From positions 2,852,001 through 2,916,000 of the forward strand of contig NZ_CP119106.1 of assembly GCF_029643425.1 (NCBI RefSeq): a stretch of 64,000 nucleotides of DNA, given 5' to 3'. Position 1 is the stretch's first letter; each line of letters starts with the position of its first letter. This document shows, piece after piece, positions 51,280 through 64,000 of this stretch. Position numbers and translations under genes: made by a program. The notes below the pieces were generated by a model. It was given only the letters and a program-made list of their open reading frames with translations, ran no database searches and was not told the origin of the DNA. Source of the DNA: Isoptericola sp. AK164 (GTDB taxonomy: Bacteria; Actinomycetota; Actinomycetes; Actinomycetales; Cellulomonadaceae).

Positions 51280-52395
51280 TCAGACCGGGGTCGGCACGGT
51301 GAGCCCGTCGAGGACGGTCCCGCGCCACGCCCGGTAGTAGCGCGGCTCGACCGGCGCACCCGGCGCGTCGAGCTCCGCGGCGGCGTGCCGGGCCCAGTGC
51401 GGGTCGCGCAGCATGGCGCGCCCGATCATCACCGCGTCGGCGCTGCCGTCGCGCAGGACCTGCTCGGCCTGCCACGCGTCGGTGATGCGTCCGACGGCGG
51501 CCGTCGGCACACCGCCCTCCGTCCGGACGACCGCGGCGCCGGGCACCTGGTAGCCGGGCTCCTCGAAGTAGTCGGCGCCCGCCACGAGCCCGCCCGAGGA
51601 GCAGTCCACGAGGTCGACCCCCACCTCGCGCAGCCGACGGGCGAGGCGGGCGGTGTCGTACGCGTCCAGCCCGCCCGGGGCCACGTCCTCGGCGCTGACC
51701 CGCACGAGCAGGGGCACCTCGTCGCCGATCGCGACGCGCACGGCCGCGGCGGCGGCCACGAGCAGCCGCTCCCGCCCGCCGCCGCCCCAGTCGTCGTCGC
51801 GGCGGTTGGTCACGGGTGACAGGAGCTCGTGCAGCAGGTAACCGTGCGCGCCGTGGAGCTCGACCGCGTCGAACCCGGCCTCCACGGCGCGGCGAGCCGA
51901 GACGGCGAACGCCTGGACGACCTGGTCGAGCTCGTCGCCGGTCGCCGGCCGCGGCGGCGCGTAGTCGCCGAACGGCTCGTCCGAGGCGCCGAGCGTCGAC
52001 CAGCCGCCCTCCTCGACCGGCACGGACCGGTTGCGGTGGGCGTCGCCGGGCAGACCGCGGTACTTGCCGCCCTTGCGGCCGGCGTGGGCGAGCTGGACCG
52101 CGATCTTCCCGCCCACGGCGTGCACGGCCTCGGTGACGGTGGCCCACGCCGCCGTCTGGCTGTCGTTCCACAGCCCGGCGTCCTGCGGGGTCACGCGACC
52201 CTCGGGCAGCACGGCCGTGGCCTCGGTGACGACGAGACCGGCCCCGCCGAGGGCGAACTGGGCGTAGTGCGCGCGGTGCCAGGCCGTGACGCGGCCCGTG
52301 CGGTCCTCGCAGGCGTACATGCACATCGGCGACGTCCAGGCGCGGTTGGCGAACGTGGTGCCGCGCAGCGTGAGGGGGGTGAACAGGGCAGTCAT
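51280..52395 (-). CDS. Old-yellow-enzyme family ene-reductase (YqjM-like)
   Basis: The 371-residue FMN protein begins FTPLTLRGTTFANRAWTSPMCMYAC with the YqjM-class cysteine. It has QLAHAGRKG, the substrate-binding His pair in ELHGAHGYLLHELLSPVTNRRDD and the C-terminal GRAMLRDPHWARHAA. It reduces activated C=C bonds with NAD(P)H. The ATG overlaps the preceding stop (ATGA). As the last gene of the 11-gene operon it probably reduces an unsaturated intermediate of the imported compound; the substrate is unknown. Confidence 0.92.
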   Translation of the reverse strand: MTALFTPLTLRGTTFANRAWTSPMCMYACEDRTGRVTAWHRAHYAQFALGGAGLVVTEATAVLPEGRVTPQDAGLWNDSQTAAWATVTEAVHAVGGKIAVQLAHAGRKGGKYRGLPGDAHRNRSVPVEEGGWSTLGASDEPFGDYAPPRPATGDELDQVVQAFAVSARRAVEAGFDAVELHGAHGYLLHELLSPVTNRRDDDWGGGGRERLLVAAAAAVRVAIGDEVPLLVRVSAEDVAPGGLDAYDTARLARRLREVGVDLVDCSSGGLVAGADYFEEPGYQVPGAAVVRTEGGVPTAAVGRITDAWQAEQVLRDGSADAVMIGRAMLRDPHWARHAAAELDAPGAPVEPRYYRAWRGTVLDGLTVPTPV

Positions 52396-53774
52396 CGTGC
52401 GGTGGACCTCCGGGAGACGAGGAGCGCGGCGAGGGAGAGCAGGAGGAGCAGGAGCCCGATCCCGCCGACCCAGGCGCCGAGGGCGTGGATGCCGTCGGCG
52501 CCGGCGGGGGTGACGCCGGCGGCGACGACGACGGCGGCCAGCGCGGCGCCGACGTACTGGGACGTGCGGTACAGCCCGCTGGCCACGCCGGCCTGCTGCT
52601 GCTCCACCGCGGAGTGCAGCTGGAGCTGGTTGCCGATGTTGTTGAAACCGTTGGGCAGCCCGAGCAGCCCGCCCAGCAGGACGAACAGCCACACCGGCGA
52701 GTCGACGGTCACGGCCCAGACGGCGAGCGCCCCGGCCGCCACCATCGCCGCCCCGCCGACCACCAGCAGCAGGTGGGCCGGGACGCGGGAGCCGAGCCGG
52801 GTGGCGACCACGGTCGACACGACGCCGACGCCGAACACCGGGACCATGAGCAGCCCGGCACCGACGGGCCCGAGCCCGCGCGAGGCCTCGAGCCACTGCG
52901 GCAGGCCGTAGAAGATCGTGTAGAAGGAGACGAAGGTGACCATGGCGCGCACGCAGGTGCGCCACAGCGCCGGGTTCCGGGTGAGCAGCCGCACGTCCAG
53001 GAACGGCTGGGGCGACCGTGCGGACCACAGGACCAGGACGACCACGCCGACGGCGGCCGCGACGAACCACCACCACCGGGCACCGGTCTCCAGGGACAGC
53101 AGGCCGAGCATGAGCGTGGCCAGCGTCGCCACGAACGCGACCAGCCCGACCGGGTCGATGGCGCGCAGCGTCCCGACGAAACCGACGGAGGCGCGGGGCG
53201 GGTCGGCGGGCACCGTGCGCAGCACCCAGAAGGCCGCGTTGGCCACCATCGGGACGTTGACCCAGAAGATGCCCTCCCAGCCCCAGACCGCCACGATCGG
53301 CCCGCCGACGGCGGGGCCCAGGGCCGCGGTGGTCTGGCCGCACAGGGCTATGACGCCCAGCGCCGACGCCGGGGAGGTGCGTCGACGCTGCGCCTCGCGG
53401 CGGATGATCGCCATCGCCGTCGGGAACTGCAGCGCCGTGCCCACCCCGAGCAGGAACCGGTCGGCGACCAGCCACTCCAGGCTGGGCACGAACGGCCCCG
53501 CCACCGAGGCCACCAGCGTGATCGCCAGGCCGACGAGGTAGACGCGGCGCGGGCCGAACAGGTCGGCGAGCCGGCCGCCGGTCGGCGAGCAGACCGCCGC
53601 GGACAGGTACAGCGCCGACACGATCCACGCCGTCGCCGGCCCGGTGCCCAGGTCGGCACCGATGGAGACCAGCGCGACGGCCAGGACCGCCGAGTTCAGG
53701 CCCTGCAGGATCGTGCCCGAGCCCAGGGCCCAGCTCATCGGCCGCGGGAGCTGCGCCGCCGTCGTCGTGGTCAC
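52392..53774 (-). CDS. MFS transporter, DHA2-like (14-helix) group
   Basis: The 460-residue protein has about 13-14 hydrophobic helices and the MFS loop GRLADLFGPRRVYLVG between helices 2 and 3, plus GPAVGGPIVAVWGWEGIFWVNVP (motif C region) typical of DHA2 exporters. GTG at 53774 overlaps the preceding stop. Within the operon it may import a second form of the substrate or export a product or toxic intermediate. Confidence 0.88.
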   Translation of the reverse strand: MTTTTAAQLPRPMSWALGSGTILQGLNSAVLAVALVSIGADLGTGPATAWIVSALYLSAAVCSPTGGRLADLFGPRRVYLVGLAITLVASVAGPFVPSLEWLVADRFLLGVGTALQFPTAMAIIRREAQRRRTSPASALGVIALCGQTTAALGPAVGGPIVAVWGWEGIFWVNVPMVANAAFWVLRTVPADPPRASVGFVGTLRAIDPVGLVAFVATLATLMLGLLSLETGARWWWFVAAAVGVVVLVLWSARSPQPFLDVRLLTRNPALWRTCVRAMVTFVSFYTIFYGLPQWLEASRGLGPVGAGLLMVPVFGVGVVSTVVATRLGSRVPAHLLLVVGGAAMVAAGALAVWAVTVDSPVWLFVLLGGLLGLPNGFNNIGNQLQLHSAVEQQQAGVASGLYRTSQYVGAALAAVVVAAGVTPAGADGIHALGAWVGGIGLLLLLLSLAALLVSRRSTAR

Positions 53775-54685
53775 GGGGCGACGTCCCCCGGCGGGACGAC
53801 GACGACCCCGGGCTCGGCCGCGAGACGACGCAGCACCCGCTCGGCCACGTCGGCGAAGCAGGCCTGGCCGAGCACCCAGCCGAACCAGCTCAGCCCGAGG
53901 AACCGCGGTCCGAGCACGTCGGCGTCGGCCAGGAGCTGGTCGATCGTGGCGTGCAGGATCCGCTCGTACGCGTCGGCGGTCACGCCGCGCGTGTACAGGG
54001 CGAACACGTCCTCGGTCTCCAGCGAGAACGGCAGGGCGGTCAGCCCCGTCGCGTCCCCGTCGAGGGCCACCGGTCGCTCGTCGACGGGCCAGTCGCCGAA
54101 CCAGCGCAGCCCGGCGTCGCGCAGGGCGCGGGTGGTCCGCGGCGTCTCGGCGCGCTCCGGGGAGAACCAGCCGGTGACCTCCCGCCCGGTGGCAGCGGCG
54201 ACCGCGTCCACGCTCGCGCGCACGGCGGCCGTCTCGGCGGCCAGGTCGGCGTCGGGCGGGGTGAGCACGTTCGCGGCCCGGCCGCGCGCGACGACCTCGG
54301 CCGCCCGCTCCCCCACGAGCCGCCCGAGGCCCGGCATGCGCCGCACCCCCCGCTCGTCGAGCGCGACGGCCACCGGGACGCCGGCGTCGGCCGCGGCGTC
54401 GAGCAGCCGCCAGACACCGACGGTGAGCCCGAAGTCCCACTGCGAGAGCCGGGCCACCTGCCCGTGCCGCGGTTCGGACGTGTCGCGGCCGACGCCGCCG
54501 GGCATCGACTGCGGAGTGGTGGTGCCGGCCGGCACGACGTCCTGGTAGGCCGGGGCGTGCAGCAGCACGCTCACGACCAGCCGGGCGTCCTGCCGGGGCG
54601 CCCACGGGTCGCGCCGCGGGTCGTTGCTCCGGGGCAGGGTCGGGGCGTGGACGACGGCGTCGTCCGGGTTCGTCACGAGGCTCAC
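53771..54685 (-). CDS. Polysaccharide-deacetylase-like protein, degenerate metal site
   Basis: The 304-residue protein aligns with the next upstream gene product over the NodB-like core: AEVVARGRAANVLT corresponds to WEVMSHGISNLRP and ends in WPVDERP/WIHDEQP. The metal-site histidine of the H-G segment is replaced by Arg (ARG instead of SHG), and no TFDDG or equivalent acidic motif is evident. It is therefore likely to be a non-catalytic partner or to have a changed mechanism. The GTG overlaps the preceding stop, fixing a 1:1 genetic linkage with the intact paralogue. Confidence 0.78.
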   Translation of the reverse strand: MSLVTNPDDAVVHAPTLPRSNDPRRDPWAPRQDARLVVSVLLHAPAYQDVVPAGTTTPQSMPGGVGRDTSEPRHGQVARLSQWDFGLTVGVWRLLDAAADAGVPVAVALDERGVRRMPGLGRLVGERAAEVVARGRAANVLTPPDADLAAETAAVRASVDAVAAATGREVTGWFSPERAETPRTTRALRDAGLRWFGDWPVDERPVALDGDATGLTALPFSLETEDVFALYTRGVTADAYERILHATIDQLLADADVLGPRFLGLSWFGWVLGQACFADVAERVLRRLAAEPGVVVVPPGDVAP

Positions 54686-55623
54686 GCGGCCACCTCCTCG
54701 GCCAGGGCCCGCGCGTGGGCGAGCTGGGTGTCGTAGTGGTGGGTCAGGTAGTGGTCGGCGATGTCGCCGGCGCGCGTCAGCCACAGCCGGTCGTCGCCGC
54801 GCAGCCGGTCGAAGATCTCCTCCAGGTACCGCAGCATGTGGGGCTGGCCCAGCAGGAAGGGGTGCGTGGCCAGGCAGGCCACCCTCGCCTGGCCGTCCCG
54901 CTCGGCGTCCCGGGCGAGCCGGTCGACCTGGGCCAGCACGAGGGCCACGAAGTCCTCGGGCGACAGGTTCTTGGCGTGCAGCATCGGGACGTCGTTCAGC
55001 ATGTAGCTGTACGGCATCGACACCAGCCGACCGCCGTCGCGGGTGGCCAGCGGCCGCGGCTGCTCGTCGTGGATCCAGTCGGCGTGGTACGTCATGCCGT
55101 GCGCGACCATGAGGTCGGGCGTGGCGTCGGTGCCGGAGATCTTCGGGCCGAGCATGCCCCGCAACCGCGTGCCGTAGTACGTCTCGGCCAGCCGCTGCGA
55201 CTGCGCGAGGAAGGCGTCCTCCTCGGACCACGACAGGTCGTAGATCGGCCGCAGGTTGGAGATGCCGTGGCTCATGACCTCCCAGTCGCGCTCGCGCATC
55301 GCGTCGCGCACGTCCGGGTCGTCCTCCAGCAGCGTCAGGCTCAGCGACACCGTGGACGGGATCTCGTAGCGGTCCACGGCGCGCAGCATCCGCCACAGCG
55401 CCACCCGGTTGCCGGCCGCGCGGTGCATGTAGTGCTGCACGTCCGGCGCGGCGACCCGGCCCTGGGGGCTGCCGCCGCCCGGCGGGACGTAGTCGTAGTG
55501 CTCGACGTTCGGGGCGTGCCACACGGCCACGCCCTTGCCGCCGGGCCAGGTGACCCGCGGGCGCAGGGGCAGCGGGGCGTAGACGAGCCGGTCGTCGGTG
55601 GTCAGCCGGGCCGCGGGCGTCAC
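54682..55623 (-). CDS. Polysaccharide-deacetylase-family amidohydrolase (PuuE/cyclic-imidase-like)
   Basis: The 313-residue NodB-fold protein has GVAVWHAPNVEHYDYVPPGGG in place of the usual TFDDG, then RDWEVMSHGISNLRPIYDLSWSEE with the H-G-x-x-N/H metal segment, and ATHPFLLGQPHMLRYLEE near the C-terminus. These are traits of the allantoinase/cyclic amide hydrolase branch rather than chitin or peptidoglycan deacetylases. There is no signal peptide, which supports a cytosolic small-molecule substrate. The GTG overlaps the preceding stop. Confidence 0.82.
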   Translation of the reverse strand: MTPAARLTTDDRLVYAPLPLRPRVTWPGGKGVAVWHAPNVEHYDYVPPGGGSPQGRVAAPDVQHYMHRAAGNRVALWRMLRAVDRYEIPSTVSLSLTLLEDDPDVRDAMRERDWEVMSHGISNLRPIYDLSWSEEDAFLAQSQRLAETYYGTRLRGMLGPKISGTDATPDLMVAHGMTYHADWIHDEQPRPLATRDGGRLVSMPYSYMLNDVPMLHAKNLSPEDFVALVLAQVDRLARDAERDGQARVACLATHPFLLGQPHMLRYLEEIFDRLRGDDRLWLTRAGDIADHYLTHHYDTQLAHARALAEEVAA

Positions 55624-56297
55624 GCGTGCACCGCCGCGTCGTCGGCCGTCCGGCCCGGTCCCGCCGCCCGGGCGGCGAACCGCTCGAGCGTCTCGTCCAG
55701 GGAGACGACGTCGCCGAACCGGTCCTGCATGTCCCACAGGCTGGTCTCGCCGGACAGCACGCGGAAGTCGTCGCAGCACTCCTCGACGACGCTCACGCGC
55801 AGGCTGCGGTAGGCCGCGTCGACGACGGTGGCGCGCACGCAGCCGCTGGTCGACGTGCCGGTCATCACCAGCTCGTCGACCCCGAGCTCGGCGAGCAGGT
55901 CGTCCAGGCGGGTGCGCCAGAAGCCGGACGCGACGGTCTTCTCCACGACGTGGTCCTGCGGGGCCGGCGGCACGACGGGGCTGATCTCCGTCCACGGGTC
56001 GCCGCGCAGGCAGCGCTCGGTCAGCGACGAGCGCACCCGCTGGGCGAGCATCCGGTCGTCCAGGTCGTCGAGGATCATCACCAGGTAGATCACCGGGACG
56101 TCCGCGGCGCGGGCCGCCGTGAGCAGCCGCTGGGTGTGCTCGAGTGCGACGGCGGTGCCCGGACCGATGTTCTCGTGCTCGGTGAAGGCGCGCTGGAAGT
56201 CGACGACGACGACCGCGGGACGCTCGCCCGGTCCGACCTTCGTGCGCTCGGCGCGCCGGCGGCGGATGGTCTCGACCTCCGCGTTCCAGTCCGTCAT
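55620..56297 (-). CDS. Isochorismatase-family cysteine hydrolase (amidase-like)
   Basis: The 225-residue protein has the catalytic triad of the cysteine hydrolases: Asp in AVVVVDFQRAF, Lys in HVVEKTVASGFW and Cys in MTGTSTSGCVRATVVDA. The length and the FQRAFTEH segment fit the N-carbamoylsarcosine amidase/maleamate amidase branch. GAGGAGG precedes the ATG, which overlaps the stop of the PrpD-like gene. It likely cleaves a C-N bond of an open-chain amide, following ring opening by the deacetylase-family enzyme; this is inference from gene order. Confidence 0.9.
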   Translation of the reverse strand: MTDWNAEVETIRRRRAERTKVGPGERPAVVVVDFQRAFTEHENIGPGTAVALEHTQRLLTAARAADVPVIYLVMILDDLDDRMLAQRVRSSLTERCLRGDPWTEISPVVPPAPQDHVVEKTVASGFWRTRLDDLLAELGVDELVMTGTSTSGCVRATVVDAAYRSLRVSVVEECCDDFRVLSGETSLWDMQDRFGDVVSLDETLERFAARAAGPGRTADDAAVHA

Positions 56298-57634
56298 GGG
56301 TGGTTCCTCCTCGTGGTCGGGCGGGGCCGCAGCCTCGCGAGCGGCTCGTCGCACCGCGGTGCGTCGGCGAGCGAGCGCACGACGTCGGTGACGTCGTCCG
56401 CGGTGACGCGCGACGCCCCGGCGGCGAGCGCCTGGGTGAGCAGACGTCGCCGGTCGGCGGCGTCGAAGGGGGTCAGGTCGCGGTCCCCGGCCGGGTGGTC
56501 GACGGCGGCCTCGAGGACCGTGCCGTCGTCCAGCGTGAGCCGGACGCGCGCCGGACGGGCGCCGGGGTCGCCGGGTTCCAGCGTCTCCAGCTCGACCCGG
56601 TCGGCGACCCCGGACACGGCGGGCGCCCGGAGGGGGTCGGACCGGTGCGGGGCCACGTCGCCGTGCACGAGGGCGCTGGCGACGGCGAACGGGGTGGAGA
56701 AGTGCGCACCGTGCGGGGTGCTCCACCGCCGGGCGGCGAGCCGCACCCCGGCCGGGGCCGTGGCGACGGTGATCGACGCGACGTCGTCGAGGTCGCGTCC
56801 GGCGGCGGCCAGCCGCTCGCGCACCGCGAGCGCGGCGTCCGCGGGGGCGTGCGTGTACGCGCAGGCCGCGTGCTGCTTCAGGTAGCCGTGGGCGAGGAGC
56901 AGGTCGGTGCCGACGGGCACCAGCTGTTCCGGGTCCAGCTCGCCGACGGCCGGCGGCATCCCGGTGCCGGGTGCCGCCCAGCCGGCGCGCGCGACGCGGG
57001 CGGCGGCCAGGCCGGCGACCGCTCCGGTGCCCGCCCAGGTGTCACGGACGTCCGAGCCGGCGAGCACCGGGGTCCAGGAGGTCGCGACGAGCCCGCCGAG
57101 CGCGGTGCGCACGGCCCGTTCGACGACGTCGGCACCGGCGTCGGCCAGCACCGCGCACCCGGCCGCCGTCCCCGGTGCACCGAGCGTGCCGTGGGTGTGC
57201 ACGTCGGCCGCGAGGGTGGTGGCCCGACCGATCCGCGCGGAGACCTCGTACGCCACGACGAGCGCCTCGAGCAGCTTGCTGCCGCTCGCCCCCGTCGCCT
57301 CGGCCTGCGCCAGCACGCCGAAGAGGCTCAGCGCGGCCGGGTGACCGGCCGCGAAGCGGTTGCCGTCGTCGAGCTCGGTCCGCACGGCCGCGGCCGAGTT
57401 CAGCCACGCGGCGGCCTCGACGGAGACCCCTGCCGCGGGGACACCGACGAGCGTGCACGGTCCGGGAGCGGGGTCCCAGACGTCCACGAGCCGGCGCATC
57501 GCCGGTGTCCCGTGCCCGCCCGCGGTGACGGCCAGCAGGTTCGCCAGCACGTCCTCCAGGGCGGCCCGCGCGTCCGGGGCGACGTCGTCGAGCCGCAGCG
57601 CGGCGGCCCAGGACGCCAGTCCGCTGAGCGTCAT
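56294..57634 (-). CDS. MmgE/PrpD family protein
   Basis: The 446-residue protein has the helical N-terminal domain with LDDGNRFAAGHPAA (conserved D-D-x-x-x-x-x-x-H-P) and AYEVSARIGRA, then GTLGAPGTAAGCAVL and LKQHAACAYTHAPADAAL. These match the PrpD family (2-methylcitrate dehydratase, cis-aconitate decarboxylase, iminodisuccinate epimerase). It starts with ATG one base after the livF stop. The exact reaction on this substrate, perhaps dehydration or epimerisation of a dicarboxylate, is not determined. Confidence 0.9.
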   Translation of the reverse strand: MTLSGLASWAAALRLDDVAPDARAALEDVLANLLAVTAGGHGTPAMRRLVDVWDPAPGPCTLVGVPAAGVSVEAAAWLNSAAAVRTELDDGNRFAAGHPAALSLFGVLAQAEATGASGSKLLEALVVAYEVSARIGRATTLAADVHTHGTLGAPGTAAGCAVLADAGADVVERAVRTALGGLVATSWTPVLAGSDVRDTWAGTGAVAGLAAARVARAGWAAPGTGMPPAVGELDPEQLVPVGTDLLLAHGYLKQHAACAYTHAPADAALAVRERLAAAGRDLDDVASITVATAPAGVRLAARRWSTPHGAHFSTPFAVASALVHGDVAPHRSDPLRAPAVSGVADRVELETLEPGDPGARPARVRLTLDDGTVLEAAVDHPAGDRDLTPFDAADRRRLLTQALAAGASRVTADDVTDVVRSLADAPRCDEPLARLRPRPTTRRNHP

Positions 57635-57635
57635 G

Positions 57636-58334
57636 TCAGCCCCCGAGGTAGGCGGCCTGGACGCGCGCGTCGTCCGCCAGGTCGGCACCGGACCCCTCGA
57701 GCACGACCGACCCCGACTCGAGCACGTAGGCCCGGTCGGCGAACGACAGCACCTGGGAGGCGTTCTGCTCGACGATCAGCACGCTGACCCCGCGGTCGCG
57801 GATCGCCTTGACGGCGTCGAACACCGTCCAGGTCAGCTTCGGCGACAGCCCGGTGGACGGCTCGTCGAGCAGCAGGAGGTCCGGCGACCCCATGAGCGCC
57901 CGGGCGATGGCGAGCATCTGCTGCTGACCGCCCGACATGGTCTCGGCGAGCTGCGTGCGCCGCTCGCGCAGGATGGGGAAGAGGTCGAGGATCCAGTCCT
58001 TCTCGAACCCCCAGCGCCCCTTGCGCGCGCGGGCGCCCATGGTGAGGTTCTCGTCGACCGTCAGTGACCCGAACAGCGCCCGGTGCTCGGGCACGAGCAT
58101 GAGCCCGCGGCGGGCGAGCTCGTGGCTGCGCCCACCCACGACGGGCTGGTCCTTGAAGGTGACCGACCCGCCCTGGAGCTTCACCTCGCCGACGATCGTG
58201 CGCAGCGTGGTGGACTTACCGGCGCCGTTCGCGCCGACGATCGCGACGATCTCGCCCGGCTGCACCGTCAGGTTCACCTCGTGGAGGATCTCCAGGCCGT
58301 GGTAGCCGCTGCGGACACCCGTGAGCTCAAGCAT
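57636..58334 (-). CDS. LIV-type ABC transporter ATP-binding protein (LivF-like)
   Basis: The 232-residue protein has Walker A GANGAGKST, signature ETMSGGQQQMLAIARAL, Walker B LLLLDEPSTGLSPK and switch VLIVEQNASQ, exactly the LivF layout. It pairs with the LivG-like ATPase immediately upstream, whose gene it overlaps by 8 bases. The transporter belongs to the hydrophobic/branched-chain amino acid family, whose members also take up amides, urea and aromatic acids. Confidence 0.95.
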   Translation of the reverse strand: MLELTGVRSGYHGLEILHEVNLTVQPGEIVAIVGANGAGKSTTLRTIVGEVKLQGGSVTFKDQPVVGGRSHELARRGLMLVPEHRALFGSLTVDENLTMGARARKGRWGFEKDWILDLFPILRERRTQLAETMSGGQQQMLAIARALMGSPDLLLLDEPSTGLSPKLTWTVFDAVKAIRDRGVSVLIVEQNASQVLSFADRAYVLESGSVVLEGSGADLADDARVQAAYLGG

Positions 58335-59058
58335 CGGAGGCCTCCTTGCCCAGGTAGGCCTCGACGACCTGCGGGTCGGTGAGGACCTCGTCGGCCGAGC
58401 CGGTGGCCAGCACGGCACCGGAGTCCATCATCACGACGTGGTCGGACAGCCGCCGGACCGCGGCCATGATGTGCTCGATGAAGACCATCGTCATCCCTTC
58501 GGTGTCACGGAGGTTCTCCAGCAGGTCCAGCACGGGAGCGCGCTCGGCCGGGACGAGCCCGGCGAGCACCTCGTCGAGCAGGAGGACCCGAGGACGCATG
58601 GCGAGCGCGCGGGCCAGCTCGAGACGCTTCTGCATCGCGGCGGGCAGCGAGCCGGACAGCTGGTCGGCCCACTCCCCCAGCCCGGTCCGCTCGACGGTCT
58701 CGCCGGCTTCCCGGCGGGCCGTGCCGCCGCGCGCGCCGCGGCTCATCGCCGCGATCTCCACGTTCTCCAGCACGGTCATGGTGTGGAACGGCCGCATGAG
58801 CTGGAACGTACGGACCATGCCGCGGTGCGCGAGCTTGTGCGCGGGCTGCCCGGTGACGTCCGCGCCGTCGAGCCGGACCGTGCCGGACGTCGGCGGGAAG
58901 TTGCCGGTGATGCAGTTGAACAGGGTCGTCTTGCCGGCGCCGTTGGCGCCGATGACGCCCAGGATCTGCCCCTCCTCGACGGAGATGTCGACCCCGCGCA
59001 GGGCCTGCAGGCCGCGGAAGGACTTGCTGATGCCGGTGGCCTCGAGAACAGCGGTCAC
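58327..59058 (-). CDS. LIV-type ABC transporter ATP-binding protein (LivG-like)
   Basis: The 243-residue protein has Walker A GANGAGKTT, VRTFQLMRPF (the LivG RTFQ motif), Walker B VLLLDEVLAGL and VFIEHIM. The signature region reads LSGSLPAAMQKRLELARAL, where the usual LPYGQQ/LSGGQ glycines are missing. This may weaken that half-site, as in some asymmetric transporters. GTG at 59058 overlaps the LivM stop. Confidence 0.93.
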   Translation of the reverse strand: MTAVLEATGISKSFRGLQALRGVDISVEEGQILGVIGANGAGKTTLFNCITGNFPPTSGTVRLDGADVTGQPAHKLAHRGMVRTFQLMRPFHTMTVLENVEIAAMSRGARGGTARREAGETVERTGLGEWADQLSGSLPAAMQKRLELARALAMRPRVLLLDEVLAGLVPAERAPVLDLLENLRDTEGMTMVFIEHIMAAVRRLSDHVVMMDSGAVLATGSADEVLTDPQVVEAYLGKEASDA

Positions 59059-60125
59059 GACTTCCTCCGACGGGACACGAGCGTGCCGTACACGCCCTTG
59101 GGGAGCAGGATCACGACCGCGACGAGGATCACGGCGTAGAGGATGATGTCGAGGCCGCCGTGGCCGGCGAGCCACTCGAACCCGGGCGGCGGTGTGCGCA
59201 GGAACCCGGTGACGACGTCCGACAGCGGCGCCATGATGATCGCGCCGACGATCGGGCCCCAGATGGTGCCCGTGCCGCCCACGACCGCGGTGATGATGGC
59301 GTCGTTCGAGGCGGCGGCGCCGAAGGCGATCTCCGGGTCGACGAACATGTAGTACTGCACGTAGTACGTGCCGGCGACGGCGGTGATCGCGGCCGAGACG
59401 GCCACGGCGAACAGCTTGTGCCGCAGCACGTCGATGCCGAGCGCGGCGGCGGCCACGTCGTCGTCCCGGGCGGCGATGGTGAAGCGGCCGGGCCGGGACC
59501 GGACGAAGAGGATGGAGGCCAGCAGGCACATGCCGAGCAGGCCCAGCCCGATCCAGTAGTACCAGGGCGAGCCCGCCGGGAACTGGAAGTCCACGAGGGA
59601 CGAGCCCTGCTGCACGGGGATCGTGAAGCCGACCGTGCGGTTCAGCGCGTCGTTGCCGATGACGAAGAGGCGCAGCGCCTCGGCGAACGCGAACGTCGAC
59701 ATCGTGTAGTAGGCGCCGGTGAGCTTGTACCGCAGCGCCAGGTAGGAGATGCCGACACCGGCCGCGACGGAGATCGCGATGCCGAGGAGCATCCCGAGCC
59801 AGGGGCTGAGGCCCAGGACGACGACGCCGTAGGCGGTCGCGTAGGCCCCGATGCCGAAGTAGGCGGCGTGGCCGAAGGAGAACATGCCCCCGAACCCGGC
59901 CATGATGTTCCAGCCCACACCCATGATCGCGAAGATCAGGACGCGGTTGGCGATGGCCATGTCCGAGGCGGACAGGACGAACGGCACGGCCGCGGCGACG
60001 GCGACGAACACGGCGAGGACGACGTAGTCGCCGCGCGAGCGCTGCGACCCGGTGTCCGTGGTGAGGCGGCCGGTCAGCCCGCCGCCGGCGGAGGTCGAGG
60101 TGCGTGGGGTTGCGGTGGTGGTCAC
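59055..60125 (-). CDS. LIV-type ABC transporter permease (LivM-like)
   Basis: The 356-residue protein has a polar N-terminus (1-35) and about nine transmembrane helices. It includes the family motif GWNIMAGFGGMFSFGHAAYFGIGAYATAY and the C-terminal GPIVGAIIMAPLSDVVTGFLR. GTG at 60125 overlaps the LivH stop. It forms the inner-membrane channel with LivH. Confidence 0.94.
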   Translation of the reverse strand: MTTTATPRTSTSAGGGLTGRLTTDTGSQRSRGDYVVLAVFVAVAAAVPFVLSASDMAIANRVLIFAIMGVGWNIMAGFGGMFSFGHAAYFGIGAYATAYGVVVLGLSPWLGMLLGIAISVAAGVGISYLALRYKLTGAYYTMSTFAFAEALRLFVIGNDALNRTVGFTIPVQQGSSLVDFQFPAGSPWYYWIGLGLLGMCLLASILFVRSRPGRFTIAARDDDVAAAALGIDVLRHKLFAVAVSAAITAVAGTYYVQYYMFVDPEIAFGAAASNDAIITAVVGGTGTIWGPIVGAIIMAPLSDVVTGFLRTPPPGFEWLAGHGGLDIILYAVILVAVVILLPKGVYGTLVSRRRKS

Positions 60126-61126
60126 GAGGCCCTCCCGAAGACACCCTTGGGGCGGATGAACAGGACGATGAGGAAGACGACGAACACGGCCAGCAGCGGG
60201 CTCTCGTCCGGCAGGATCAGACCCGCCAGCTGCTCGGTGAGCCCGACGACGAGCCCGCCGACCAGGGCGCCGGGGATGTTGCCCATCCCGCCGAGGACGA
60301 CGACGACGAACGCCGTGAGGTTGAAGATCGCCCCGCTGGTGGGCTCGATCGTCGTGAAGGGGGCGACGAGCACGCCGGCGGCTCCGGCGGCCATGGCGCC
60401 GAGCGCGAAGGTCACCGAGTAGATCGACTTGGTGTTGATGCCGACCAGCCGGGCGCCCTCGGGGTTGGCGGCGACGGCGCGGATCGAGGTGCCGATCGCC
60501 GTCCTCTGCAGCACGAGCGACAGGATCGCCACGAGCACCAGCGCGCCGACGAACGCGTAGATCCGCGACAGCTCGACGGTGGCGCCGAGGATGCTGACCC
60601 CGACGTTGCCGGGCAGCTGGACGGAGCGCGGGGTGGGCCCGAAGACCAGGAGCAGGACGTTCTCGATCGCCAGCGCGAGGCCGATGGTGACCAGGAGCTG
60701 GATCTGGATCGGCGCCCGCATGACCGGGTTGAGCAGCGACGTCTGCAGCAGGGCGCCGAGCACCCCCATCGCGGGGACGACGACCAGCAGGGCGGTGTAG
60801 GGGTGGACGCCCATCGTGTCGACGGTGACGAACGTCAGGTACATCGCCAGCGCCACGAGGGCGCCGTTGGCGAAGTTGATGATGTGCAGGACCCCGTAGA
60901 TGAGCGTGAGGCCCATGGCCACGAGGCTGTAGATGCCACCGGTGAGCACGCCGGTGACGAGTGCCTGGACCAGCACGGTGCTGCTCCCGGCGCGGAGCGC
61001 GGCGACCGCGGTCACGACCGCCAGGACCGAGACCGTGACGATCGCGACCTTCTGGCGTTCGGACAGGGTGGGCCGCCGCGCGGCCGAGCCGGTGGTCTCC
61101 GGCGCGTTCTGCAGGCTCGTGGCCAT
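60122..61126 (-). CDS. LIV-type ABC transporter permease (LivH-like)
   Basis: The 334-residue protein has about eight transmembrane helices with TGGIYSLVAMGLTLIYGVLHIINFANGALVALAMYL near the start and AAGAAGVLVAP and VVVLGGMGNIPGALVGGLVVG later, all hallmark LivH segments. GAGGAGG precedes the ATG. It is separated from the substrate-binding protein by 41 bases and otherwise fused into the overlapping operon. Confidence 0.95.
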   Translation of the reverse strand: MATSLQNAPETTGSAARRPTLSERQKVAIVTVSVLAVVTAVAALRAGSSTVLVQALVTGVLTGGIYSLVAMGLTLIYGVLHIINFANGALVALAMYLTFVTVDTMGVHPYTALLVVVPAMGVLGALLQTSLLNPVMRAPIQIQLLVTIGLALAIENVLLLVFGPTPRSVQLPGNVGVSILGATVELSRIYAFVGALVLVAILSLVLQRTAIGTSIRAVAANPEGARLVGINTKSIYSVTFALGAMAAGAAGVLVAPFTTIEPTSGAIFNLTAFVVVVLGGMGNIPGALVGGLVVGLTEQLAGLILPDESPLLAVFVVFLIVLFIRPKGVFGRAS

Positions 61127-61167
61127 GGGACCTCCTCAGGAGTCGTGGACGGGCGCGGGGAGCGCGG

Positions 61168-62427
61168 TCACTCGGTCGGCGGAGCGGGGAAGACGTAGTC
61201 CGTCTCGGCGAACTCCTGCGGGAAGACCTGGACGATGTCGCCGTCCTGGATCTGCATCACCACGACGGCGGCGTTGGTGTTCTGGCCGGTCTCGTCGAAG
61301 GTGACGGGTCCGTCGGCGACCATCAGCGGCGCGTACCCGGTCTCGGTGACGGCGTCGCGCACGGCGGTGGTGTCGGTGGACCCGGCGCGCTCGAGCGCCT
61401 CGGCGATGACCATCACGGCGTCGTAGGACAGGACGGCGGAGCTGCGGATCGGCTCGCCGTGCTCGGCCTCGAACGCCTCGGCCAGCGCCTGGGAGTCGGC
61501 GTTGGTGACGTCCCAGTGGTAGTTGGCGTCGAAGTAGCCGTCGCCGCCGTTCGGGGCGTCGTTGACGAAGTCGGGCTGGTCGTAGGCGCCGTTGGCGACG
61601 CCGTACACGGCCTGCAGGTCCGGCTCGACGATGTCGACCGCCTGCGCCACGAGCAGGGAGTCGCGGTAGTAGCCGGTCACCACGAGCGCGTCGGCGTCCG
61701 AGGCGGCGACCTGCGTGATCTGGGTGGTCATGTCGTTGACCGCGGCGGGGTCGTACTGGATCACCGGGTCGACGGTCAGCCCGGCCTCCTCGGCCTCGGC
61801 GAGGAAGGTCTCGTAGGCCGCGGCACCGTAGTTGCCCTGCTCGTACAGGTAGGCGACCTGGTCCACCTCGGCGCCGGAGTCCTCCACGAGCGACAGCAGC
61901 GACTCGGCTCCCTGGGTGCCCATCTGGCTGGCGCTGGGCTGGAGGCGGAACGAGTAGGTGTAGCCCTGCTCGAGGATCTCGTCGAGGGCGGAGACGTCCA
62001 TGACGAACGGCACCTGGTTGCGTTCCGCCACCGACGCGACGTTCGCGCTGGTGCCGCTCTGGAAGGTGCCGAGCAGCGCGACGGCCCCCTCCTCGATGAG
62101 GCGGGTGGCCTCGCTCTGTCCCGTCTCGGCCTCGCCCTGGGTGTCCGCCGAGTCGAGGACGAGCTCGGCCCCGCCGAGCGACTCGATGCCCCCGGCCTCG
62201 TTGACGGCGTCGACGGCCATCTGGGCCGCAGCGGCCATCTGCTGGCCGTCCGCGGCGTTGGACCCGGTGAGCGGGTGCAGGGCGCCGATGTGGATCTCGG
62301 CCACGTCCTCGGTGGTGGCCTCCGCGTCGCCGCCGGCCGCGCTGACGGCCGAGCCGGCGCACCCGCTCAGTGCGAGCGTCGCTCCGGCCAGTCCGACCAC
62401 GGACCAGTTCCGCAGGCTGCGCTTCAT
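61168..62427 (-). CDS. LIV-type ABC substrate-binding lipoprotein
   Basis: The 419-residue protein has a lipoprotein signal ending LALSGC (Cys about 23) and a Peripla_BP_6 fold: IHIGALHPLTGSNAADGQQMAAAAQMAVDAVNEAGGI, then ALLGTFQSGTSANVASVAE and YRDSLLVAQAVDI. It captures the substrate outside the membrane for LivHMGF. CAGGAGGAG precedes the ATG. As the first gene of the operon it lies next to a GTTCCG-type operator, so expression probably responds to the IclR regulator. Confidence 0.95.
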   Translation of the reverse strand: MKRSLRNWSVVGLAGATLALSGCAGSAVSAAGGDAEATTEDVAEIHIGALHPLTGSNAADGQQMAAAAQMAVDAVNEAGGIESLGGAELVLDSADTQGEAETGQSEATRLIEEGAVALLGTFQSGTSANVASVAERNQVPFVMDVSALDEILEQGYTYSFRLQPSASQMGTQGAESLLSLVEDSGAEVDQVAYLYEQGNYGAAAYETFLAEAEEAGLTVDPVIQYDPAAVNDMTTQITQVAASDADALVVTGYYRDSLLVAQAVDIVEPDLQAVYGVANGAYDQPDFVNDAPNGGDGYFDANYHWDVTNADSQALAEAFEAEHGEPIRSSAVLSYDAVMVIAEALERAGSTDTTAVRDAVTETGYAPLMVADGPVTFDETGQNTNAAVVVMQIQDGDIVQVFPQEFAETDYVFPAPPTE

Positions 62428-62447: not shown

Positions 62448-62466
62448 TGTTCCGAGAAACGGAACA
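62448..62466 (-). promoter_or_regulatory. Candidate IclR operator at the importer operon
   Basis: TGTTCCG-N5-CGGAACA (62448-62466) is a perfect 7+5+7 inverted repeat 20 bases upstream of the substrate-binding-protein start. Confidence 0.65.
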
Positions 62467-62563: not shown

Positions 62564-62602
62564 TTTCTAGGCTGTTAAGTCTTGGTTTCCATGCGCCTAC
62601 AC

Positions 62603-62619
62603 GTTCCGATCAATGGAAC
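62603..62619 (+). promoter_or_regulatory. Candidate IclR operator at its own gene
   Basis: GTTCCG-N5-TGGAAC matches the other operator with one mismatch and the same spacing, 43 bases upstream of the IclR start. Confidence 0.6.
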
Positions 62620-62662: not shown

Positions 62663-63433
62663 GTGCCCGAGGACCACCGTTCGTCGACGACGCACCGCGT
62701 CGCACAGGTGCTGCTGGCGTTCACGGGGCAGCAGCGCTGGCTGGGTGTCACGGAGCTGGCCCGGCGGCTGGGGCTGGGCAAGGCCGTCGTGCACCGCATC
62801 CTGCAGGCGCTGGTGGAGACGGGCCTCGTCCGCTACGACGAGAACCGCCGGCTGTACGCGCTCGGCCCCACGGCGGTGGCGCTGGGCCGCGGTGCGGACG
62901 CCGGCAACGAGCTGCTCACCGCGGCACGCCCGGTGATCGCCCACCTCAGCCACGCCACCGGCGAGACGACCACCGTCACCCAGCGCACCGGGCACACCCG
63001 GACCTACGTCGGCCAGGTGGAGAGCGCCCAGCACATCCGGATCGCCATCACGCTCGGCGAGCACCAGCCGCTGACGAACGGCGCGAGCGGGCTGAGCATC
63101 CTGGCCTTCCTGCCCGAGGAGGATGTCGACCTGGTCCTCCAGGTGCCGCTGCCGCAGTTCACCCCCCGCACCGTCACCGACCCGGACGCCATCCGCGAGC
63201 GCCTGGCCGAGATCCGCGAGCGCGGCTGGGCCTACACGGCGTCCGAGCGCGTGCCGCACTCGAGCAGCGTGGCCGCGCCGATCCACGACGTCACCGGTGC
63301 CGCCGTCGGCTCCCTGTCCGTGGCCTACCTCGACTCGCGCTTCGACGAGCGCGAGGTGCCGCGCCTGGCCGACCTCGTCGTCGAGGCGGCGGAGTCGGCG
63401 ACGCAGCGGCTCGTCGCCGCCCAGCGCGGCTGA
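62663..63433 (+). CDS. IclR family transcriptional regulator
   Basis: The 256-residue protein has an N-terminal winged helix (HRVAQVLLAFTGQQRWLGVTELARRLGLGKAVVHRILQALVETGLVRYDENRRLYALG) and a C-terminal IclR effector domain with RTYVGQVESAQHIRIAITLGEHQPLTNGASGLSILAFLP and WAYTASERVPHSSSVAAPIHD. GTG at 62663 follows AAGGAGG. It is divergent from the 11-gene catabolic operon and very probably controls it, with the imported compound or a metabolite as effector. Confidence 0.93.
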   Translation: MPEDHRSSTTHRVAQVLLAFTGQQRWLGVTELARRLGLGKAVVHRILQALVETGLVRYDENRRLYALGPTAVALGRGADAGNELLTAARPVIAHLSHATGETTTVTQRTGHTRTYVGQVESAQHIRIAITLGEHQPLTNGASGLSILAFLPEEDVDLVLQVPLPQFTPRTVTDPDAIRERLAEIRERGWAYTASERVPHSSSVAAPIHDVTGAAVGSLSVAYLDSRFDEREVPRLADLVVEAAESATQRLVAAQRG

Positions 63434-63522: not shown

Positions 63523-64000
63523 TCAGCCGTCGTGACGTCCCGCGGCGGCCACGGTGAGCCCGGGGGCCGTGCCGGCCCGGCCGGGCGCGGTCCCGCCGTG
63601 GCCGGGGTTCTGCCCGGTGCGGCCCGGGGCGTCGCCGGACGCGCCCGGGGCCGGGGCCTGCGGCGCACCGATCCAGTCGACCGTCTCGACGCCGCCGGAC
63701 TCGTACCGCTCGACCACGCGGGTCGCGCCGTTGCCGGTCGCGGTGACGGACTCGGGGGCGACGTCGTCCTCGACCCAGGCGGAGATCGCGGACATCCAGT
63801 CGACCTCGTCCTGCCCGGGGCCGCCGCTGCAGTGGTAGACGCCCGGCAGCATGAAGGTGCGCAGGTAGGAGTCGGTCACGCGCGCCCCGCCGTCGGCGTC
63901 GACCACGCGCTCGTAGTAGTCGAGGGTGCCGTACGGCGTGATGAGCGGGTCGGCCCAGCCGTGCCAGAGGATGAGCTTGCCGCCGCGCTCGCGGAACGCC
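63523..64000 (-). CDS. Tannase/feruloyl-esterase family hydrolase, N-terminal part beyond window
   Basis: The frame enters from the right edge and encodes GGKLILWHGWADPLITPYGTLDYYERV, then FMLPGVYHCSGGPGQDEVDW, the Asp and His segments of the tannase/feruloyl esterase family (the Ser part lies outside). The last ~50 residues are a Gly/Pro/Ala-rich tail ending at the stop at 63523. Such enzymes are usually secreted and release phenolic acids from plant polymers. Completeness and signal peptide cannot be judged here. Confidence 0.8.
   Translation of the reverse strand, partial: AFRERGGKLILWHGWADPLITPYGTLDYYERVVDADGGARVTDSYLRTFMLPGVYHCSGGPGQDEVDWMSAISAWVEDDVAPESVTATGNGATRVVERYESGGVETVDWIGAPQAPAPGASGDAPGRTGQNPGHGGTAPGRAGTAPGLTVAAAGRHDG

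Follow-up and report, generated by a model that had tools for sequence, protein, structure and literature searches.

A conserved eleven-gene operon of Isoptericola sp. AK164 predicted to take up and degrade a cyclic imide

The 64,000-nucleotide stretch of Isoptericola sp. AK164 analyzed here (contig NZ_CP119106.1, positions 2,852,001 to 2,916,000, referred to below as the window) carries an operon of eleven minus-strand genes, from 62427 to 51280 in window coordinates, which probably takes up and degrades a cyclic imide. The initial annotation had described an eleven-gene operon at this place, and all eleven genes are indeed present, tightly packed and with open reading frames. From first to last, they encode a LIV-type substrate-binding protein (SBP, 61168..62427; Peripla_BP_6, E 1.4e-49, with GGAGGAG upstream of the start), the permeases LivH (60122..61126) and LivM (59055..60125), both with BPD_transp_2, the ATPases LivG (58327..59058; ABC_tran and BCA_ABC_TP_C) and LivF (57636..58334; ABC_tran), an MmgE/PrpD-family protein (56294..57634; MmgE_PrpD_N/C), the isochorismatase-family amidase ISO, a predicted half-amidase (55620..56297; PF00857), the predicted catalytic subunit of a cyclic imidase, PuuE1 (54682..55623), its PuuE-fold partner PuuE2, predicted to be non-catalytic (53771..54685), an MFS transporter of the DHA2 efflux type (52392..53774; MFS_1), and the YqjM/NamA-like ene-reductase OYE (51280..52395; Oxidored_FMN). 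The LIV-type ABC importer is complete by Pfam, with its SBP, two permeases, and two ATPases together. The families named initially were confirmed, nine of the eleven by Pfam matches above cut-off and the remaining two, PuuE1 and PuuE2, by PDB sequence searches and fold. Overlaps of 1-8 bases had been reported between the genes; eight of the ten junctions do overlap, seven by 4 bases (LivH/LivM, LivM/LivG, PrpD/ISO, ISO/PuuE1, PuuE1/PuuE2, PuuE2/MFS, and MFS/OYE) and LivG/LivF by 8 bases, but LivF and PrpD are separated by a gap of 1 base and SBP and LivH by one of 41 bases.

Neither PuuE1 nor PuuE2 passes a Pfam cut-off, as PuuE1 matches Polysacc_deac_1 below threshold (21.6 of 23.1 bits) and PuuE2 has no Pfam match. 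Sequence searches of the PDB group both proteins with PuuE, and their AlphaFold2 models (pLDDT 86.5 for PuuE1 and 84.2 for PuuE2) adopt, by Foldseek, the distorted TIM barrel of the NodB/PuuE kind. The best matches of the two models are 3cl6, 3rxz, 1z7a, and 3s6o (TM 0.69-0.80); the PuuE allantoinase 3cl6 is the top fold match of PuuE1 (TM 0.74), and 1z7a, 3s6o, and 3cl6 are matched by PuuE2. Both proteins miss the PuuE allantoinase model TIGR03212, with 84.2 and 40.4 bits, respectively, for a cut-off of 424.6 bits.

The two proteins differ sharply in their active-site residues. We aligned 96 PuuE1/PuuE2 pairs from the genome_contigs collection, plasmids, further genomes, and the window. In this set, which comprises 95 distinct PuuE1 and 95 distinct PuuE2 sequences, a single Kineosporia place is represented by both L036 and L047, and L051 and L103 contribute two pairs apiece. 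The residues N39, E41, H119, N123, N210, and H254 are all kept in 95 of the 96 PuuE1 proteins, and not one of the 96 PuuE2 proteins has all six; N123 occurs in none of them, N210 in one, and N39 in four, and the PuuE2 of the window reads H, P, R, A, E, and F at these positions. A tree splits PuuE1 from PuuE2 completely (96 versus 96, support 1.0). In the available text of PMC3084791, the metal site of Helicobacter pylori PgdA (HpPgdA) is given as D12-x-D14, H86-xxx-H90, and H247. The PuuE1 spacing N39-x-E41, H119-xxx-N123, and H254 equals it, and in this match, made by spacing and not by superposition, the second metal histidine of HpPgdA is replaced by asparagine (N123) in 95 of the 96 PuuE1 proteins. 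PuuE allantoinase itself is described as metal-independent in the part of PMC10967932 available to us. The initial annotation had assigned the two deacetylase-fold enzymes to two separate steps. This assignment is not supported: the active-site residues are lost in PuuE2, and the two genes form a tandem in 76 of the 80 genome_contigs loci analyzed. PuuE2 is probably a non-catalytic partner, and from these patterns we infer a heteromer of one catalytic and one non-catalytic subunit.

The ISO protein carries the triad D33/K120/C153, which is kept in all 67 aligned core ISO proteins. Its nearest PDB structures are 4l07/4l08, N-carbamoylsarcosine amidohydrolase, and 3ot4, of which 4l07/4l08 and 3ot4 are presumably maleamate amidases. 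ISO resembles the maleamate amidohydrolases and N-carbamoylsarcosine amidohydrolase in having them as its nearest solved structures and in its D-K-C triad, but differs from them in sitting with a PuuE-fold pair. It stays below the equivalog cut-offs for RutB (54.3 of 378 bits) and biuret hydrolase (46.2 of 370 bits). The earlier suggestion of cyclic imide or amide catabolism is borne out to the extent that the PuuE-fold pair and an amidase nearest to the maleamate/N-carbamoylsarcosine kind form a widespread conserved module. Imide ring opening and deamidation are well supported as predicted functions by context and residues, and conversion of a cyclic imide to a half-amide and then to a diacid is quite likely to be what the module does.

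The order of the operon genes is conserved as well. A search for the same gene order, which the initial annotation had recommended, found the complete gene set, PrpD and OYE among them, in unchanged order in an Acidipropionibacterium metagenome-assembled genome (MAG) and three Microbacterium genomes (L046 and L048-L050), and the same order without PrpD in a Cellulomonas MAG (L045). A further locus (L032, genome G112) keeps the genes from SBP to MFS without PrpD, and OYE was not found there. Because the order is kept in other actinobacteria, the operon is not a chance grouping. In a survey of 297 genomes of the order, six besides the Isoptericola genome itself proved to encode a PuuE1 relative with at least 49% identity; the four other listed genomes of the same genus gave no PuuE1 match, and the operon therefore seems to be an accessory trait.

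The core of ISO, PuuE1, and PuuE2 recurs across phyla. The genome_contigs collection was scanned with seven PuuE1 sequences; of the 549 stretches that matched, the best 80 make up the loci counted here, so that the frequencies given are those of the nearest relatives; on plasmids, 11 loci were examined among the 80 rows listed. ISO lies alongside the PuuE1/PuuE2 tandem in 46 of the 80 loci. The LIV importer, PrpD, ISO, PuuE1, and PuuE2, i.e., the entry set of the window, are common to the window and Comamonadaceae loci, and all but the importer are shared with Burkholderiaceae. The Comamonadaceae loci contain a lyase and a hydratase in addition, and thus form a bridge between the gene set of the window and the lyase/hydratase loci described below.

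Related loci were searched with reference proteins from annotated plasmids. An isocitrate-lyase/PEP-mutase-family protein is encoded in 19 of the 46 loci with ISO, PuuE1, and PuuE2, versus one of the 30 loci with PuuE1 and PuuE2 but without ISO (Fisher p 1.2e-4; tblastn E 1e-8 in the loci as retrieved). Lyases lying further upstream in three Comamonadaceae loci are left out of the 19, and the loci without ISO were not extended. The background is about 0.01 per 20 kb, under score limits that differ from those of the locus search: 0.013 per 20 kb at E 1e-50 in 20 chosen genomes, a stricter limit that is not like for like, and about 0.01 per 20 kb at a looser E 0.001 (18 matches in seven actinobacterial genomes). 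The motif KRCGH or KKCGH occurs in 17 of the 19 ISO-locus lyases and in the four plasmid ones; the other two (L047 and L053) are flavoprotein fusions without the motif, which is also missing from the single lyase among the 30 ISO-less loci (L079). The Burkholderia plantarii lyase carries the catalytic-loop motif KRCGH, and PDB relatives of the lyase include petal death protein, PrpB, and 2,3-dimethylmalate lyase.

Other genes accompany the module less often. An aconitase-family hydratase is found in 7 of the 46 ISO loci (in B. plantarii, one of the LeuCD/DmdB kind), a flavoprotein similar to fumarate reductase and tricarballylate dehydrogenase in 10, and a LIV-type SBP in 10. PrpD is present in 11, in 10 of them directly before ISO and in the eleventh (L120) about 8 kb away on the other strand. 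In two Microvirga loci and Rhizobium rhizoryzae (L108, L114, and L134), ISO, PuuE1, PuuE2, the hydratase, a LIV importer, the lyase, and the flavoprotein form one run. Three actinobacterial loci have a different arrangement: in L035 (3133-7774) and, by similarity to it, in Kineosporia (L047) and Arthrobacter citreus (L053), the neighbor of ISO-PuuE1-PuuE2 is a fusion of an FAD_binding_3 protein with a PEP-mutase/lyase-like domain that lacks the CGH motif, and all three also have a maleate-isomerase/arylmalonate-decarboxylase-like protein and a nitrilase by the module. A CaiB gene and an HMG-CoA-lyase-like gene lie at the module on an Acidiphilium plasmid and two sphingomonad plasmids (L128, L129, and L135), the latter with a second aconitase-type hydratase; a Novosphingobium locus (L133) has a hydratase and CaiB, and an HMG-CoA-lyase-like gene was not found there. 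This suggests a CoA-dependent alternative lyase branch.

Hematinic acid is 3-methyl-4-carboxyethylmaleimide, which derives from heme and chlorophyll. An imidase, a half-amidase, an aconitase-type hydratase, and a methylisocitrate-lyase-like enzyme together would match a dialkylmaleimide. The hematinic triacid is the one-carbon homologue of 2-methyl-cis-aconitate, and therefore the lyase would yield pyruvate and glutarate. We predicted glutarate before the dehydrogenase of B. plantarii was identified, when its label 'acyl-CoA dehydrogenase' and the label 'CaiB' were already known. Among solved structures, this dehydrogenase, which lies beside the module, matches glutaryl-CoA dehydrogenase at 735 bits, compared with 584 bits for an unspecified acyl-CoA dehydrogenase (4w9u) and 237 bits for acyl-CoA oxidase 4. 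One prediction of the pigment-maleimide hypothesis was thereby borne out in a relative. For the CoA-transferases (CaiB) of B. plantarii and Caballeronia, succinate-glutarate CoA-transferase is the best-matching family (542 and 544 bits), the next one reaching 318 and 322 bits. Caballeronia and Chitinasiproducens share the order hydratase, flavoprotein, lyase, porin, ETF-beta, ETF-alpha, glutaryl-CoA dehydrogenase, and CaiB, with PrpD, ISO, PuuE1, and PuuE2 divergent from this run. In Caballeronia, ETF-QO and a 3-hydroxyacyl-CoA dehydrogenase come next after CaiB, and the glutaryl-CoA dehydrogenase of the locus is a second copy in the genome. A Rhodospirillales MAG (L172) combines the hydratase, the lyase, and the core with a 64% relative of the dehydrogenase; a CoA-transferase was not found at this locus.

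The remaining enzymes of the operon are less easily placed. The PrpD-like protein belongs to the MmgE/PrpD superfamily, with both Pfam domains (99.4 and 77.1 bits), and is a candidate hydratase, isomerase, or decarboxylase. Its nearest solved structures are IRG1 and IDS epimerase, and it misses the 2-methylcitrate dehydratase model NF042438 (37.9 of 950 bits). It is 30-33% identical to the PrpD preceding ISO in Burkholderiales and 23% identical to the PrpD of the prpDBC cluster of its own genome, which supports a shared, as yet unnamed, role of the window and Burkholderiales proteins. In view of the low identity to a genuine PrpD and the missed cut-off, the dicarboxylate dehydratase proposed for it initially is a possible but tentative assignment. 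A PrpD acting as a cis-aconitate decarboxylase on hematinic triacid was rejected by chemical reasoning only, as the allylic carboxylate is one carbon too far. OYE matches PF00724 at 229 bits, NADPH dehydrogenase 3gr7 at 301 bits, and YqjM 1z41 at 281 bits, and as a whole protein misses the NamA equivalog cut-off (327.4 of 431 bits). It lies beside the PuuE pair in several actinobacteria, with ISO or with an amidase-signature enzyme, and this co-occurrence is consistent with reduction of the imide or its product. In Puerhibacterium (L051) and Cellulosimicrobium (L060), an amidase-family protein and OYE stand beside PuuE1/PuuE2 and ISO was not found; L051 has a second PuuE1/PuuE2 pair. The best NCBIfam match of the MFS transporter is the EmrB subfamily (DHA2 efflux), below cut-off (114.9 of 230.2 bits).

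Upstream of the operon and divergent from it lies a gene for an IclR-type regulator (62663..63433, plus strand; IclR_C and HTH_IclR). Its longest open reading frame starts with TTG at 62582 and encloses one operator, but the ribosome-binding site AAGGAGG favors the GTG start at 62663. Between IclR and SBP are two operator-like inverted repeats, GTTCC-N7-GGAAC, at 62449..62465 on the SBP side and 62603..62619 on the IclR side, the sole perfect matches in the 64 kb window. With one mismatch allowed, the window has four matches for 1.71 expected, a count that is weak by itself; we read the repeats as operators because of their position and conservation. In an intergenic alignment, the IclR-side repeat is found in six of six relatives, with one change in four of the six, and L045 and L046 have perfect intergenic copies. 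IclR adjoins the operon in L032, L045, L046, and L048-L050. A tannase/feruloyl esterase gene (PF07519) adjoins IclR on its other side (window 63523-64000 and beyond; L167:523-2550), as does a 53% relative in Microbacterium excoecariae (L050), and may be part of the same IclR regulon.

Taken as a whole, the operon is best explained as a unit, induced by its substrate, for taking up and degrading a cyclic imide, an explanation that we favor with some reserve. In this scheme, IclR would control the operon via the two operator sites, and the LIV importer, judged by its family, would take up the imide. PuuE1, with PuuE2 as its non-catalytic partner, would open the imide ring to a half-amide, as the conserved residues and fold suggest, and ISO, with its catalytic triad, would release a dicarboxylate and ammonia. 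The two other steps are the weakest: the C=C bond of a maleimide-type ring or of the unsaturated acid is probably the target of the YqjM-like reductase, and hydration or isomerization of the unsaturated acid is the probable role of the PrpD-like protein. The MFS transporter may export the product or a toxic imide. For the window, a substrate of the alkyl-maleimide/succinimide class, most likely a 3,4-dialkyl maleimide or succinimide, has a little less than an even chance of being correct. In Burkholderiales, hematinic acid would be converted to the triacid, then to a one-carbon homologue of 2-methylisocitrate, and finally to pyruvate and glutarate; hematinic acid as the substrate of these loci is an evenly balanced proposition, and as that of the window operon it is doubtful. 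Hydantoin-propionate, pyridine-diols, and plain succinimide or maleimide are further candidate substrates.

Several observations weigh against this interpretation. All enzyme roles in the operon, the substrate included, are read from sequence and structure models. The E, H, H triad is kept in 12 of the 96 PuuE2 proteins, that of the Rhodospirillales locus among them, so loss of activity may not extend to all of them. The lyase is missing from 27 of the 46 ISO loci; that of B. plantarii has PrpB (TIGR02317) as its best NCBIfam model but stays below the cut-off (277.3 of 354.4 bits), and the actinobacterial flavoprotein fusion was weakened as a candidate for the same lyase by the missing CGH motif in Kineosporia and A. 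citreus. The two CoA-transferases do not reach the succinate-glutarate cut-off (NF052585; 542 and 544 of 750 bits), and their prediction was not blind, as the Acidiphilium CaiB (L128) had earlier matched the same model best (235 bits). It is also conceivable that glutaryl-CoA dehydrogenase and CaiB form a pair of general occurrence that these loci acquired. No lyase, hydratase, glutaryl-CoA dehydrogenase, or CoA-transferase was found in the stretches searched near the window operon or near its counterparts in L045, L046, and L048-L050. The Isoptericola genome has one PrpB, inside the prpDBC cluster, where PrpB and PrpC exceed their model cut-offs and PrpD falls just below (850 of 950 bits); its two other aconitase-family genes are read as LeuC and aconitase by size, and no acyl-CoA dehydrogenase is more than 35% identical to the Burkholderia glutaryl-CoA dehydrogenase. 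Dedicated hydratase, lyase, and glutarate genes of a hematinic-acid pathway were thus not found in this genome. Replacement of the hydratase by PrpD was weakened as an idea because the two coexist in the same Burkholderiales loci, so PrpD is no simple substitute, and saturation of the ring by OYE would leave PrpD no double bond to hydrate.

Four other explanations were weighed. Nitrogen scavenging or detoxification only, in which OYE would reduce a reactive maleimide, the imidase and ISO would free ammonia, MFS would export the carbon skeleton, and PrpD would be accessory, is consistent with an MFS transporter closest to efflux proteins, with the result that none of the downstream carbon genes looked for turned up close to the window operon or in L045 and L048-L050, and with the lack of PrpD in L045 and L032. 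However, a five-part importer and the carbon genes of the relatives point to use as a carbon source, and we regard this explanation as fairly improbable. We judge about as improbable a pyridine-diol pathway, in which the ring would be 2,6-dihydroxypyridine (a glutaconimide tautomer) or hydroxyglutarimide, as in fungal nicotinate degradation. According to the available text of PMC9304392, HxnT (an OYE), HxnM (a cyclic imidase), and HxnN (an amidase) act in turn in Aspergillus, and L035, Kineosporia, and A. citreus have FAD_binding_3 proteins next to ISO-PuuE1-PuuE2. The conjugative plasmid pLDW-10 of Arthrobacter crystallopoietes (L125, 8225-18148) has a run of genes for a molybdenum hydroxylase, PuuE1, PuuE2, an asparaginase, an acyl-CoA synthetase, and a quinone oxidoreductase, with molybdopterin genes nearby, and this run is possibly a hydroxypyridine or glutaconimide route. 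Glutarimide would likewise yield glutarate, but the hydratase and the methylisocitrate-lyase-like enzyme would be superfluous for it, and no hydroxylase gene was recognized in the operon or the scanned flanking genes.

Two further explanations follow from the fold of the pair. PuuE1/PuuE2 could open a hydantoin- or allantoin-like ring, with ISO cleaving the N-carbamoyl product in the manner of N-carbamoylsarcosine amidohydrolase. PuuE, the fold match of PuuE1, is an allantoinase, and its model gives PuuE1 84.2 bits; among the PDB groups matched by ISO, the N-carbamoylsarcosine amidohydrolases come second; and some loci have hydantoinase/oxoprolinase-type genes in the vicinity of the module. 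Yet both PuuE proteins are far below the PuuE cut-off, a margin so wide that allantoin degradation was rejected as the principal reading, the operon contains no racemase, ureidoglycolate, or sarcosine enzyme, and the hydratase, lyase, and glutarate enzymes of the relatives would be left unexplained; a cyclic ureide pathway is accordingly unlikely, a little more so than the two alternatives above. Public records annotate the pair as polysaccharide deacetylases, and polysaccharide or peptidoglycan deacetylation with unrelated neighbors would follow from that label. This we rejected as highly improbable, because Polysacc_deac_1 is sub-threshold in PuuE1 and absent in PuuE2 (although both Burkholderia homologues pass), the metal site is altered, with N123 at the position of the second metal histidine in nearly all PuuE1 proteins, the closest fold is PuuE, and ISO is a frequent neighbor.

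The cyclic-imide reading can also be set against known systems. An imidase and half-amidase route is known for succinimide and maleimide. Its logic, from imide to half-amide to diacid, is that proposed here, but the window has in addition a LIV importer, PrpD, OYE, and an amidase of the isochorismatase fold. With the 2-methylcitrate cycle (PrpD, AcnD, and PrpB) and the dimethylmaleate hydratase and dimethylmalate lyase of Eubacterium barkeri, the module has in common that relatives of the hydratase, the lyase, and PrpD sit with it. In contrast to these systems, the lyase and the window PrpD are below the equivalog cut-offs, imidase and amidase genes lie alongside, and glutarate genes are present in some loci. 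PuuE allantoinase (3cl6) shares the fold and, in the sources available, acts on small cyclic amides, as do HxnM and a Pseudomonas putida homologue; the identity to 3cl6 is about 21%, and the window proteins form a two-gene tandem with a site-less partner and miss the PuuE cut-off. The nearest combination found is the hxn nicotinate pathway of Aspergillus nidulans, in which an OYE (HxnT), a cyclic imidase (HxnM), and an amidase (HxnN) act on one ring (PMC9304392). It differs in that HxnN is FAAH-like and hydroxylases belong to the pathway, and the available text mentions no LIV importer, PrpD, or lyase.

In the open-licence PMC literature, with subscription papers mostly outside the search, we found no description of such a gene cluster, and the initial view of an undescribed system stands within these limits. 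Hematinic acid appears in the literature on heme degradation and fossil pigments, in the parts available, and its release by ChuS is named in a title in the reference list of PMC8669743; bacterial catabolism of hematinic acid or pigment maleimides was not found in the open-licence PMC literature. As far as found, the operon consists of ordinary parts in a conserved, apparently undescribed combination. We tentatively propose, as a broader idea that falls well short of an even chance, that ISO-PuuE1-PuuE2 carries out the first steps of a widespread and so far undescribed pathway that degrades the maleimides and succinimides arising when heme and chlorophyll are oxidized. It would comprise an imidase made of a catalytic subunit and a pseudoenzyme and a 'homo-methylcitrate' branch to pyruvate and glutarate, i.e., an FAD dehydrogenase or ene-reductase, an aconitase-type hydratase or PrpD-like enzyme, and a methylisocitrate-lyase-like enzyme, with the window as the actinobacterial version.

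Few pigments on Earth are as abundant as heme and chlorophyll, whose oxidation gives rise to maleimides. If the broader proposal is true, imide catabolism would become the assigned function of a module that public records now label 'polysaccharide deacetylase', and the module could serve to trace what becomes of pigment carbon and nitrogen in soil and sea. The weaker form of the finding would still set right how a large family of proteins is annotated and would identify its partner genes.

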